Below are positions 25,506 to 30,481 of a DNA stretch of 64,000 bases, in pieces. The first letter of the stretch is position 1, and the number at the start of each line of letters is the position of its first letter. Source of the DNA: Mycobacteroides chelonae (GTDB lineage: Bacteria > Actinomycetota > Actinomycetes > Mycobacteriales > Mycobacteriaceae). The stretch spans positions 744,001 through 808,000 of the forward strand of contig NZ_CP050145.1 in assembly GCF_016767715.1 (NCBI RefSeq), read 5' to 3'. The translations under genes were made by a program, and so were the position numbers. The notes under the pieces were generated by a model. That model made no database searches. It was not told where the DNA came from and saw only the letters and a list, made by a program, of their open reading frames with translations.

Positions 25506-25649
25506 TTGATTTAATTAGACGCTCTGTCTATTACGGATTCATCGCCGGAGAATCTCGCTTGAACGAATGCTCTGGTGATTCGAATTAATCCGATAGTACT
25601 TTGCGCGTGAATCGTTTTACGCCTGCTATCGGACAGGGTGTTCACGCTC

Positions 25650-27407
25650 ATGAGAGTTCTACGGTTCTTGGTTGTCGTGTCCGTCCTAGTGACCATCGGG
25701 ATAACATTTCCATCTGTCTCGCAAGCAGATACGGCCATCGAAGCAGAATCGATGTCCTATACCAGCGGCGGCGGGGGAGCCTGGGCGGACGGTAGTGCGT
25801 CCGGTGGAACCCTCCTGGGCCTATACGGTCAGAATGCTATTGCCACGAACACGGTGTGGCTCCAAACTTCGTCGAGAATAGTTATTCGGGCGCGTGGGCA
25901 GCAATGTCTGGGCGCGCCGGCCATGCGCATCAGCGTCGACAATGCCGAGGTGGGCAATTTCACCGTATCGGCAAATGGCCTGACCGATTACACGGTGGAT
26001 TTGTCCATCGCCGAAGGGTCGCATTCCATCACCATTACGAACAGCGCGGCGTACAGCACCTTCTTCTGCGGGCGGATGCTGGTGCTGGACAAGGTGACGG
26101 TGGTGTGGACCGCGCCCACCACCACGACGCCGACAACCACCACGGCGCCGTCCTCGGACTGCGTTGTGAATGAGTACCAGGCCAGCTACTACAACAACAC
26201 CGCGTTGAGCGGTGACCCGGTGGTGCGACAGTGCGAGACATCGGTGGGTGGCTACTTCCGAAGTGCCGCACCGGTATCCGGTGTCAACACGTCGAACTGG
26301 GGTGCCCAATATGTCGGAACGATCCACTTTCCGGTCAGTGGCAACTACGTGTTCAGCGCGGACACCGGGAACATGGCGGTGCGGGTGTGGCTTGACGGAC
26401 AACTGGTGATCGACAAGGGGACGGTGAGCTGGGGCCGAAATCTAGCTGCCAAGAACGTCACCGCGGGTGATCACGCGGTTCAGGTTGCCTTCTGGAAGTC
26501 GTCCGGCGATTCCTTCGAGTTCTTCTCCGTCTCGCAAATGGGGCCGGGCCCGGCCAGTACCAATGGCAACTACTTCTCGGCAGACTCCTTCTGGAACACA
26601 CCGATCCCCGCCGACGCCCAGATCGACTCTCGCTCTGACGGTTGGGTGGCGATGCTGGGAAACCAGAATGGCATCTCGCTGAACAGCAGCACGTGGACGC
26701 AACCCATCTACGTCGCGCCAGCGGGCACCCCTACCCGCGCCATCCGGATCACCAACTCGAACAAGTACCTGACGGTTCCGTACCTGCCGTCCTATAGGGC
26801 GAGCCCTGACGGTGACAGCGCGCTGATCATCGTGGATCAGGCGAAGGGATGTGCCTATGAGCTGGAGATATTCAACAATTCCTCCTCGGCGGTGGCCTCC
26901 GCCTCCTATCACGCCTACACGGGCACCGGCGGACACACATCGGGGCCGGCCCATGCGGGCGGCGAGCTGTCCTGGCTGGCCGGGCTCATCAGATCGTCCG
27001 AGGTGAACGCGGGCGGCATCAACCATGCGCTGCGCTATGCGCTGCCTATCGGCTCACCACGATTCGCCTATCCGGGCACCCGTTCCGACGGCACCACGCC
27101 CGGCGGCATTCCGCAGGGGACCAGGATGCGGCTCGACCCGTCTCTGAATCTGGACCAGTTCGCCCTGACCCCGTTTCAGCGGATGGTGGCCATCGCCTTG
27201 CAGAACTACGGCGGCTACAACGCCGATACCGCCGGGGTGCTCGCCGTCGCCACCGAGAACACCATGGCCTCAGCGCCTTTCAACCTGCCACTTTCGGGGT
27301 TGCCGCAGACCCTCATCCAGCATCTGCAGTTCCTCAAACCCACTGTGGCGTCTACTGACATCCGGTTGGACGAGCAGGCCGACCAGACCTGTGCGCAACA
27401 GCAGTAG
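25650..27407 (+). CDS. Secreted CBM-PA14 protein with unassigned C-terminal domain
   Basis: 585 residues from ATG 25650 (GTG 25638 also possible). Signal peptide about 1-27. Residues about 30-150 resemble a calcium-dependent carbohydrate-binding module (IEAESMSYTSGGGGAW...GRMLVLDKVTVVW). A Thr/Pro linker follows, then a PA14-like domain (about 170-305; YYNNTALSG, VRVWLDGQLVIDKG). A C-terminal domain of about 275 residues has DSFWNTPIP, TGGHTSGPAHAGGELSWLAGLI, and RFAYPGTRSDG. The last two domains match the product of 27959-29308. Function on a surface or environmental glycan is inferred; no catalytic family recognised. The 144-base upstream gap is AT-rich. Confidence 0.8.
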   Translation: MRVLRFLVVVSVLVTIGITFPSVSQADTAIEAESMSYTSGGGGAWADGSASGGTLLGLYGQNAIATNTVWLQTSSRIVIRARGQQCLGAPAMRISVDNAEVGNFTVSANGLTDYTVDLSIAEGSHSITITNSAAYSTFFCGRMLVLDKVTVVWTAPTTTTPTTTTAPSSDCVVNEYQASYYNNTALSGDPVVRQCETSVGGYFRSAAPVSGVNTSNWGAQYVGTIHFPVSGNYVFSADTGNMAVRVWLDGQLVIDKGTVSWGRNLAAKNVTAGDHAVQVAFWKSSGDSFEFFSVSQMGPGPASTNGNYFSADSFWNTPIPADAQIDSRSDGWVAMLGNQNGISLNSSTWTQPIYVAPAGTPTRAIRITNSNKYLTVPYLPSYRASPDGDSALIIVDQAKGCAYELEIFNNSSSAVASASYHAYTGTGGHTSGPAHAGGELSWLAGLIRSSEVNAGGINHALRYALPIGSPRFAYPGTRSDGTTPGGIPQGTRMRLDPSLNLDQFALTPFQRMVAIALQNYGGYNADTAGVLAVATENTMASAPFNLPLSGLPQTLIQHLQFLKPTVASTDIRLDEQADQTCAQQQ

Positions 27408-27432
27408 GGCCCATTGTTTACAACCCAACCGA

Positions 27433-27447
27433 TACCGTAAGTTACGG
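27433..27447 (+). promoter_or_regulatory. Palindrome overlapping a leaderless promoter
   Basis: CCGTAA-G-TTACGG at 27435-27447 ends two bases before the ATG at 27450. TAAGTT (27438-27443, TANNNT) lies six bases before that ATG, as in leaderless mycobacterial promoters, so the palindrome covers the -10 element. It resembles CCGTAAGTCTTACGG at 15027-15041. Confidence 0.45.
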
Positions 27448-27449
27448 GA

Positions 27450-27935
27450 ATGCCTTCGCTTGACGCAGTCGATGAAGCCTTCCTGTCCAGTGCTCCCGTG
27501 CGAGCCAGTCACACCATCTCGGTACCGGTGTCCGCCGACACCGTGTGGCGTGAGCTGACCAACGACACCACGTTGCGGTGGTTGGCGCCGGGTATCAGGG
27601 TTGTGTGGGGTAGCCCGCGCGCCGGGGTCGGAGCGGTGCGCAAGATCGGGCCGGCTGTGGGGCCCAAGGTGAACGAGCACTACTTCCTCTGGGAGGAAGG
27701 ACGTCGGAAGGCGTTCTACGTGACGAGCATGCCGGTGCCTGCTCCCGGCTTGCGTGCCTTCGCCGAGGACTACGTGGTGACGCCGACGGATCGCGGTGCC
27801 GACTTCACCTGGGCATGGGCCATCGACGGCACGGGGCCGATTCGTAATGCCACCCCCGCGGTGAACGCCATCGTCGGATTCTCGATGAAGCGCACTCAGC
27901 GGTACTTCGACAAGATTGCCGCCGCCGGAAGGTAA
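27450..27935 (+). CDS. START/SRPBCC (polyketide cyclase-like) protein
   Basis: 161 residues. The helix-grip fold is indicated by ASHTISVPVSADTVWRELTNDTTLRW at the start and the C-terminal helix VNAIVGFSMKRTQRYFDKIAA. Such proteins bind hydrophobic ligands in a deep pocket. No catalytic residue can be assigned. It stands between two secreted PA14 paralogues but has no signal peptide, so it works inside the cell. Probably leaderless. Confidence 0.8.
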   Translation: MPSLDAVDEAFLSSAPVRASHTISVPVSADTVWRELTNDTTLRWLAPGIRVVWGSPRAGVGAVRKIGPAVGPKVNEHYFLWEEGRRKAFYVTSMPVPAPGLRAFAEDYVVTPTDRGADFTWAWAIDGTGPIRNATPAVNAIVGFSMKRTQRYFDKIAAAGR

Positions 27936-27958
27936 GAGTTCGCCCGTACAGTGAATCC

Positions 27959-29308
27959 GTGCGTGCGTTCGTTCTGCTTACGGTGTTCCTGGTGGTGGCG
28001 GCGTGCGCGCCTGCCCGGAATGAGACGGATGCGGCAGCCCAGAATCCTTGCGATGTAGGCCAATACTGGACGCGGTACTACAACAACACCGATCATGCGG
28101 GCACCGCGGTGCTCGCTCGATGCGAGCACTCGGTCGGCGGGAACTTCGCGGGATCTCCAGCACCGGGCATACAGGCCGACGGATTCTCGGCCGACGCCAT
28201 CGGCTCGTTGCGATTCCCGGTGACGGGTCAGTATCGGATCGCCTCGATGAGCGGTGGTGTCGTCGCGCGTGTATGGCTGGATGGCGAGCTGATCTTCGAT
28301 CATGCCGATACCCGTGACTGGGGGACCGATCTCGCCACACGCACCGTAGAGGCCGGTGTACATGCGGTCCGCGTCAGCTATGCCGGGGTCAGCGGGCCTG
28401 CGGTACAAGAGTTCTCGGTGTCTCAGGTCGCGCTTGGTCCGGCTTCGGGCAACGGCAACTACTTCGCGGCGAATTCCTTCCTGAATCAGCCCCTCCCGCC
28501 CAATCCGGCGGTCGACCCGCGTTCGCCGAATTGGGTTGCCGCGCTGATGCATCACCCGGATGTCAAGGCAATCGACGTCAACGAGGACATCTGGACCACC
28601 GCCGTCTACCACGCGCCCGCGGGCACCCCGACCCGGATCGTCGCCGTCCGCAACAGCGGGAAGTCGATCGAGATCCCCTACCTGCCGCATTATCTGCCCA
28701 CCCAGGACGCCGACGCCCATATCGCGATCATCGACGACACCACCGGGTGTGAGTATGAGTTCCAGTCCTTCAAGCCGGATGCGATGTCGGCCATTGCCCA
28801 GGCCACCTACCGGGTCAACACCGGATCGGGCGGACATGTCAGTGGGCCCGCGCATTCGGGCGGCGAGCTGTCCTACCTGGCCGGGCTGATCACGCCGGAG
28901 GATGTGCAAGCGGGCGCGATTGATCACGCACTGAGATTCGCCATCCCGATCAACGCCCCCACCTACATGTACCCGGGTACCCGGTCGGACGGCACGGTCC
29001 TCGATGGGGTGCCGGAGGGGATCAGAATTCAGCTTGATCCGGCCCTGGATTTGCGAACGCTGAAACTGAGCCCCTTCCAGCAGATGGTTGCGACGGCGCT
29101 GCAGAAGTACGGCGCGTTCGACGCCGATGTCGCCAAGACCTTCTCGCTGACGGCGCGCAGCGTGATCGACGGCACCCGGTACCCGATCCGGGTCGACGAT
29201 CTGCCGCGCGAGTTGATCGGGCATCTTCGTTTTCTCACGCCGTCGATCAGCTCCACGGATATCCAGCTGGACACCGCTGCGGACCAGGGCTGCCGACAGC
29301 AGCGCTAG
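27959..29308 (+). CDS. PA14-domain lipoprotein, paralogue of 25650-27407
   Basis: 449 residues, GTG start. Signal sequence with a lipobox-like VVAAC (Cys17). PA14-like domain at about 35-165 (RYYNNTDHAGTAV, ARVWLDGELIFDHAD), then the same C-terminal domain as the gene two upstream: NSFLNQPLPP, SGGHVSGPAHSGGELSYLAGLI, YMYPGTRSDG, RIQLDPALDL, ALQKYGAFDAD. It lacks the N-terminal carbohydrate-binding module. The pair thus presents one free and one lipid-anchored form of the same enzyme-like domain. Name and activity unknown. Confidence 0.8.
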   Translation: MRAFVLLTVFLVVAACAPARNETDAAAQNPCDVGQYWTRYYNNTDHAGTAVLARCEHSVGGNFAGSPAPGIQADGFSADAIGSLRFPVTGQYRIASMSGGVVARVWLDGELIFDHADTRDWGTDLATRTVEAGVHAVRVSYAGVSGPAVQEFSVSQVALGPASGNGNYFAANSFLNQPLPPNPAVDPRSPNWVAALMHHPDVKAIDVNEDIWTTAVYHAPAGTPTRIVAVRNSGKSIEIPYLPHYLPTQDADAHIAIIDDTTGCEYEFQSFKPDAMSAIAQATYRVNTGSGGHVSGPAHSGGELSYLAGLITPEDVQAGAIDHALRFAIPINAPTYMYPGTRSDGTVLDGVPEGIRIQLDPALDLRTLKLSPFQQMVATALQKYGAFDADVAKTFSLTARSVIDGTRYPIRVDDLPRELIGHLRFLTPSISSTDIQLDTAADQGCRQQR

Positions 29309-29335
29309 TCTGGTAACGCTGATACCCTCCTTTCG

Positions 29336-30481
29336 GTGTCGCGACGGTCTGTGGCTGCTTATGAGTGCTTTCTGGCCACGAGAAAATTCGGGGCTCTGGA
29401 TGGCCTGCGGGCGCTGAGCGTCCTGGCGGTGATCTGGCACCACACATCAGGGACGCCGGGCCCGAGGATCTCGCACAGCGGATTCATGGGCGTGGACTTC
29501 TTCTTCGCGATCAGTGGCTTTCTCATCACCACGCTGCTGATGCGTGAACGAGATCGCACGGCGGACATCTCGCTGCGAAACTTCTATGCGCGCAGGGCGT
29601 TACGAATCTTCCCGCTGTACTACGCGGTGCTGGCACTGTATGTCCTGCTGGTGTTCGCCACCGAACGCGATACGCCGAAAGGCGAGCAATTCTTCCGGAA
29701 CCTGCCCGCGTTCCTGACCTACACCGTCAACTGGTTCGTCGACCTGTCCGCCGGTACCTCGGTGCCGTTCTACTTTTCGTGGTCGCTGTCCACCGAGGAA
29801 CAGTTCTATGTGTTGTGGCCGCCCCTGTTGGCCGGCGCGCTGCTCCTGGCCAAGGGAAGAATCGGGCCCCCGCTTGCCGTGCTGTTCGTCCTGATCGCGG
29901 TATCGGTGGGCGCAGGCATGTTTCTGGACACCCGGGTGCTGCCCTGGCGCATTTTCGCGAGCCTGTCCTTGCCCATCCTGCTCGGTGCCGCCTCCGCGAT
30001 CGTGGTGAACACGCGTCGCGGCTACGCGGGAGTCTCCGCGGTGCTGGGATGGTGGTGGTCGGCCCCGACCGTGTTCGCGGCGATGATCGGCGCGCTGTGG
30101 TTCGGTGCCCCGCCCTGGTCGATACAGGTCATCATGGTCACCGCGGTCACCGCCGTGACCATCCGCGAGGACACCCTCATGCACCCAGTGCTGACCTGGC
30201 GGCCGCTGGCATTCATCGGTGTCATCAGTTATGGGATCTACCTGATGCACATGTTGTGCGCCAACGTCGTTCGCCGCGTGGTGCACGAGGAGCAAGGGTT
30301 GGTGCTGTGCGCCGGGACAACGGTTCTCGTCGTCGTCGTTGCCTATGTCAGCTTCCGGTACTTCGAGACGCCTCTACTGCGCATCAAGCGCCGCTTCGAA
30401 TCACCTGCGGAGCGATCCGGTGACGAACTGTCCCGGACCGCTAACCAATTGCCGGTCCGAGCAGGTCGTCGGCATCGGTGA
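29336..30481 (+). CDS. Acyltransferase 3 family membrane protein (OafA/YrhL-like)
   Basis: 381 residues, about ten TM helices. Family markers: LDGLRALSVLAVIWHH with the catalytic His pair near 40, GVDFFFAISGFLITTLL, NFYARRALRIFPLYY and SWSLSTEEQFYVLWP. These enzymes O-acetylate or O-succinylate surface glycans and glycolipids using acyl-CoA from the cytoplasm. Twenty-seven bases downstream of the PA14 lipoprotein gene, so possibly co-transcribed. The last 41 bases overlap the convergent helicase gene. Confidence 0.9.
   Translation: MSRRSVAAYECFLATRKFGALDGLRALSVLAVIWHHTSGTPGPRISHSGFMGVDFFFAISGFLITTLLMRERDRTADISLRNFYARRALRIFPLYYAVLALYVLLVFATERDTPKGEQFFRNLPAFLTYTVNWFVDLSAGTSVPFYFSWSLSTEEQFYVLWPPLLAGALLLAKGRIGPPLAVLFVLIAVSVGAGMFLDTRVLPWRIFASLSLPILLGAASAIVVNTRRGYAGVSAVLGWWWSAPTVFAAMIGALWFGAPPWSIQVIMVTAVTAVTIREDTLMHPVLTWRPLAFIGVISYGIYLMHMLCANVVRRVVHEEQGLVLCAGTTVLVVVVAYVSFRYFETPLLRIKRRFESPAERSGDELSRTANQLPVRAGRRHR

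Follow-up and report, generated by a model that had tools for sequence, protein, structure and literature searches.

Hydrolases and lyases such as PslG, PelA, AlgL and BcsZ are built into exopolysaccharide operons. Here we describe a C-terminal domain (C-domain), shared by two proteins of Mycobacteroides chelonae (ORF1 and ORF2), that may be compared with these enzymes in export signal and, for most of its nearest short-type relatives, in synthesis-cluster location, a likeness drawn from these two features and not from sequence. Both genes lie in a 64,000-nt stretch of contig NZ_CP050145.1 (assembly GCF_016767715.1, positions 744,001 to 808,000, forward strand), which we call the window. PHROG 17388, labelled 'minor tail protein' and without a stated biochemical function, contains the same domain by sequence, with its polar residues kept. 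It matches Gordonia phage proteins, which differ in having N-termini for tail attachment and an extra C-terminal region. MltA (GH102; PF03562/PF06725) and the YuiC/Sps 3D proteins have no Pfam or significant profile match to the C-domain; compared with MltA, the third acidic residue of the C-domain is mostly Glu or lost, and the neighbours of its short forms are exopolysaccharide genes. The GH183 (DUF4185) endo-D-arabinanases, which PMC10115798 places in mycobacteria with one Gordonia phage member, are likewise secreted glycan enzymes of mycobacteria, but they have no sequence match to the C-domain and a different substrate is expected. The solved structures nearest by sequence to the PA14 module of ORF1 are the carbohydrate-linked PA14 structures 6qdi (E 2.8e-7) and 6qe7 (RsgI3; E 4.5e-6); this likeness is confined to that N-terminal module, and the C-domain has no match there.

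On balance, we favour the view that the C-domain represents a family, as yet without a name, of secreted domains that cleave extracellular polysaccharide rather than peptidoglycan or arabinogalactan. Our observations are of the domain itself, its residue conservation, its genomic neighbours, its modularity in phages and its confident predicted models. The near-invariant polar residues, the nearest short forms in exopolysaccharide clusters and the exchange between phage tails all fit cleavage of extracellular polysaccharide, while the absence of the domain from the Mycobacterium phage records and its patchy distribution among hosts argue against an arabinogalactan or peptidoglycan substrate.

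The C-domain is a family without a Pfam or NCBIfam name, as had been claimed in a preliminary description made from the sequence: searches of both databases with ORF1 and ORF2 gave no match over it at E up to 1. A sequence search of solved structures with a 12-row profile gave chance rows only (E 0.9 or worse). PHROG 17388 matched the C-domain of ORF2 (E 4.5e-4) as well as that of ORF1 (Table 1), and also the C-domain proteins P0051 (E 2.4e-16) and P0082 (E 2.2e-15). Literature searches found no paper on the domain, judging by search results rather than full texts, and none that mentions 'PA14 domain' together with 'Mycobacterium abscessus'. A homologue search with the C-domain of ORF1 as query yielded 60 proteins. 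One with the 12-row profile, which scored only candidates sharing most words, gave 192, of which the best 120 were used. The two tables together gave 178 distinct proteins, a set biased to kin of the queries and including two near-identical copies of ORF1 and ORF2.

Conservation was mapped on 187 domain copies, taken from these 178 proteins, ORF1, ORF2 and six phage proteins, with P0044 counted twice. All 186 sequences were matched and all 187 strings differ, the relatives having been picked by similarity. In domain numbering, to which 310 is added for ORF1, the residues kept were D83 (187 copies; ORF1 D393, ORF2 D252), H153 (187; H463, H323), E/D145 (187; E455, D315), E/D98 (186; E408, E267), D220 (186; D530, D390), D174 (184; D484, D344), Q212 (184; Q522, Q382) and D190 (172; D500, D360). 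We infer that catalysis is by D83, H153, D174 and D220 together with the acidic residues 98 and 145. This set differs from the His and Glu originally named as likely catalytic: the His of SGPAH (H439 of ORF1) was kept in 9 of 91 alignment rows and the Glu of GGE (E443) in 8 of 91. The Asp of YPGTRSDG, on the other hand, was present in 184 of the 187 domains. In the six copies from phages (Guacamole, Stormageddon, GTE8 and three IMG/VR contigs) every residue of the polar set but D190 is retained. Read by eye, a protein of a Microcystis phage has D83, E145, H153, D174, Q212 and D220, with what seems to be Arg at position 98.

Among the matches listed, 59 of the 178 homologues carry a second precomputed Pfam domain, which is of carbohydrate type (PA14, CBM60, CBM6, malectin, NPCBM, ricin, GH114 or Polysacc_lyase) in 54 of the 59; the remaining five have solely RTX, Calx-beta, Big or Fn3 beside the C-domain. 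Individual fusions include P0168, with GH114, P0060, with Polysacc_lyase, and P0163 (labelled Candidatus Levybacteria), with a BSP peptidase and a ricin lectin, while the 724-aa P0044 has two tandem C-domain copies. The domain also occurs in contigs of metagenome-assembled genomes (MAGs) labelled Acidobacteriaceae and Thermoleophilia. One mycobacterial open frame (L033:6105-8084, genome G025), which carries Big_9 repeats, and a similar one in genome G032, both of ~670-690 aa, match the domain profile over its C-terminal half only and are perhaps a degenerate or trimmed form.

The C-domain occurs in 21 of the 60 genomes in a genus set and in 37 of the 200 in an order set that overlaps it. Short-type places, defined as scoring above 230 bits with an open frame no longer than 450 aa, numbered 19 with the tandem pair of G279 counted as one, and 17 were examined, two in G209 being left out. 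Homologues of GT4 glycosyltransferases lay within the 14-20 kb stretch at 15 of the 17 (a raw count, without a chance background) and a Wzy_C homologue at 14 of the 17, G279 having GT4 without Wzy_C. The two places with neither were G338:C2 and G044:C54, the latter with just 2.6 kb of sequence. The queries came from locus L027, itself one of the 15 positive places. At L027 and L030, Pfam matches bore out both the Wzy_C and the GT4 assignment. In two exopolysaccharide clusters (L027:11382-13265, G037; L029:9161-11167, G018) a long secreted protein is encoded between a short and a long C-domain gene; the L027 copy has no Pfam match, and the likeness of the protein to the BcsB type is by eye only. 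A single long open frame at L135:3446-6754 (G384), next to a C-domain gene, is matched by the Wzy query as well as by a GT4 query and may represent two genes that are fused or overlap.

In phages, tblastn with the ORF1 C-domain found 64 records, all of Gordonia phages, and with P0051 it found 70, of which 69 were Gordonia and one was Microcystis. The domain was found in no Mycobacterium phage record of this collection, which by Lysin B queries holds at least 1911 Mycobacterium and at least 454 Gordonia phage records, some phages being two records. Match extents indicated modular exchange of the Guacamole tail protein: residues 1-204 are common to many Gordonia phages whose remainder differs, and the part from residue ~221 on recurs behind different N-termini. 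The Guacamole gene lies downstream of lysis and other tail genes, in a genome with separate Lysin A genes, and adjoins an acyltransferase gene (L005:9532-10656). This gene and the one beside ORF2 in the window both belong to Acyl_transf_3, although BLASTP between the two found no notable similarity. The Guacamole type was found in 5 phage records only, and in Birdsong, Getalong, Horus and Periwinkle an annotated acetyl- or acyltransferase adjoins the same tail gene. The acyltransferase neighbours in phage and window are perhaps a hint that the target glycan is acylated.

Confident models were predicted for the C-domain (Table 1). The fold search proposed earlier was run with two of them, and Foldseek against the PDB gave no row at E <= 0.001. 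The best structural rows, though weak, were enzymes, within alignment lists made up of Foldseek's own candidates, to which GH45, expansin, RlpA and other lyases do not belong. Rows for poxin, a neuraminidase and GH62 were of low probability and were dropped. An MltA-like double-psi barrel is a candidate fold. The C-domain gave no Pfam match to PF03562 or PF06725 (MltA/3D) up to an E of 1, and hhalign was not significant against either 3D (local P 0.065-0.12, with a profile built from the usable domain of 15 of 30 loci) or MltA (0.35-0.39). Mapped by eye, D261, D297 and D308 of MltA would fall on D174, D220 and E230/231. D220 had been taken as the counterpart of the MltA catalytic Asp; this was dropped, D308 being the third, catalytic Asp of MltA in the PMC4499186 numbering, which would map to E230/231.

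We infer both the exact substrate and the role of the acyltransferase. The target polymer would be an exopolysaccharide or capsule. In many mycobacteria a short form would be produced alongside Wzy and GT4 and would shorten the polymer or set it free, while Mycobacteroides-type genomes would use a stand-alone C-domain gene with its own PA14 and CBM60 glycan-binding modules. The membrane acyltransferase adjoining the window genes could decorate that glycan as well. As an exchangeable module of Gordonia phage tail proteins, the C-domain would bind and cut the host coat at entry. A more specific proposal, which we advance tentatively, is that of a new family with an MltA-like two-domain barrel and an active site of its own (D83/H153/D174/D220), the dedicated depolymerase of a mycobacterial Wzy-type exopolysaccharide, repeatedly adopted by Gordonia phage tails to cut the coat.

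Several observations weigh against cleavage of an exopolysaccharide. At eight places with a distant form of the domain (G006, G025, G035:C5, G395, G284, G354, G208 and G335) no Wzy or glycosyltransferase homologue was found in stretches of 8.5-18 kb. The window-type locus of Mycobacteroides kin is not inside a polymer synthesis cluster, and the window's genome has its single Wzy_C at 2.69 Mb, well away from the window itself (0.74-0.81 Mb). In addition, an acidic residue near the place of the third MltA Asp is found in 148 of 182 domains and is absent in 34. This absence, which includes ORF2, also favours the principal alternative, a non-catalytic lectin or adhesin that holds the polymer in clusters and is a pure receptor binder in phages. 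The catalytic residues are putative, several members consist of the C-domain and binding modules only, and phage tail modules are often mere binders. We nevertheless regard this alternative as unlikely: seven polar positions are kept in 184 to 187 of the 187 copies, those of phages among them, which exceeds what is usual for a binding site with varied ligands. Enzymes, if only with weak scores, head the structural rows, and the binding modules attached to the C-domain are diverse, the addition of several kinds being the usual pattern of catalytic modules.

A peptidoglycan lytic transglycosylase, that is, a distant MltA/3D (GH102-type) enzyme cutting the cell wall, would agree with the candidate barrel. 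It appears improbable, since hhalign gave it no support at the sequence level, the short forms lie in Wzy/GT clusters, the added modules are of xylan, malectin and PA14 type with no LysM among the matches listed, and Guacamole has separate Lysin A genes. Mycobacteriophages face similar peptidoglycan, but no Mycobacterium phage record was matched. The same absence speaks against a hydrolase that acts on the arabinan or arabinogalactan of mycobacterial walls, a functional parallel to the GH183 endo-D-arabinanases, arabinogalactan being common to Mycobacterium and Gordonia. Its place at the surface of Mycobacteriales and its occurrence in phages of Gordonia do give the C-domain a parallel to DUF4185/GH183 as described in PMC10115798, and because GH183, an arabinan enzyme, is also found in a Gordonia phage we keep this idea, at a very low probability. 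There was no DUF4185 Pfam match at E up to 1, and the presence of the C-domain is patchy where arabinogalactan is general. The domain is also found in the Acidobacteriaceae- and Thermoleophilia-labelled MAG contigs and the Microcystis phage, groups that to our knowledge do not make mycobacterial arabinogalactan. The arabinan or host-glycan target put forward in the preliminary description is not supported, given the phage records and the Wzy/GT clusters of the nearest short forms. Its proposal of a new glycan-active enzyme family fares better, the domain being unassigned, linked to glycans and, with a near-invariant polar set as in an enzyme, a candidate for enzyme activity.

If the C-domain is a depolymerase of extracellular polysaccharide, as we favour, it would provide an enzymatic handle on the Wzy-type exopolysaccharide of mycobacteria. 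Cutting of the polymer would make the composition and role of the coat testable, explain the Gordonia phage tail module and yield a tool enzyme. The near-invariant residues are direct targets for mutants.

Table 1. Features of the C-domain locus, in window positions
Feature	Position	Strand	Basis and remarks
ORF1, 589 aa, secreted; CBM60 + PA14 + C-domain	25638..27407	+	GTG start; signal peptide ~aa 1-30 (by eye)
CBM60 (PF16841), ORF1 aa 81-155	25878..26102	+	Pfam E 1.1e-9
PA14 (PF07691), ORF1 aa 182-262	26181..26423	+	Pfam E 2.1e-12
C-domain of ORF1, aa 311-589	26568..27404	+	PHROG 17388 E 3.8e-12; model pLDDT 93.8; no Pfam or NCBIfam match
SRPBCC (Polyketide_cyc2) gene between ORF1 and ORF2	27450..27935	+	Pfam; flanking gaps 42 and 23 nt
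ORF2, 449 aa, probable lipoprotein; PA14 + C-domain	27959..29308	+	lipobox LVVAAC, Cys16 (by eye)
PA14 of ORF2, aa 37-143	28067..28387	+	Pfam E 4.3e-9
C-domain of ORF2, aa 167-449	28457..29305	+	alignment
Acyl_transf_3 (PF01757) membrane acyltransferase, 27 nt past ORF2	29336..30481	+	Pfam E 7e-25

The earlier picture of two PA14 paralogues with a common, motif-bearing C-terminal domain, one secreted with a carbohydrate-binding module and the other a lipoprotein, was borne out (Table 1). Both frames were confirmed on the forward strand, and the start first given for ORF1, 25650, proved to be an in-frame ATG four codons inside it. The CBM60 score of ORF1 (39.1 bits) is above the Pfam cut-off of 28.2, and ORF2 has no Pfam match to CBM60; the PA14 scores, 47.5 bits in ORF1 and 36.8 in ORF2, both exceed the cut-off of 24. 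ORF1 would thus be released from the cell, with two modules for glycan binding, and ORF2 would stay attached to it. ORF1 146-589 and ORF2 2-449 are 46% identical over 449 alignment columns (E 1e-143). As to an origin of the pair by tandem duplication, the ORF1 and ORF2 clades were separate in a maximum-likelihood tree, a joint grouping of the clades not being rejected (approximately unbiased test, p 0.091). The C-domain of ORF2 may work differently from that of ORF1 because the MltA-type acidic residue is absent in ORF2, where R400 stands at the position of E540 of ORF1.

The genes for ORF1, SRPBCC, ORF2 and the acyltransferase suggest one operon because the gaps between them are so short (Table 1). 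Searches near the ORF1 and ORF2 genes found neither a sigma-70-like promoter site nor an Rfam match reaching the gathering score. The NCBIfam SucT match of the acyltransferase is far below the SucT cut-off. The order SRPBCC-ORF2-acyltransferase recurs in five relatives (G050, L066, L067, L082 and L085), and L080 and L088 have the SRPBCC and C-domain genes with no acyltransferase at the threshold used. Two C-domain genes at this locus were seen in the window, L066 and L067 only. Around the PA14-type kin of the window in Gordonia, Tsukamurella and Rhodococcoides the neighbouring genes vary and do not include Wzy, with single GT4-like open frames in L072 and L087. A 515-aa antisense open frame (window 27896-29443, reverse strand) spans all of ORF2 and resembles the shadow frame of a GC-rich gene.

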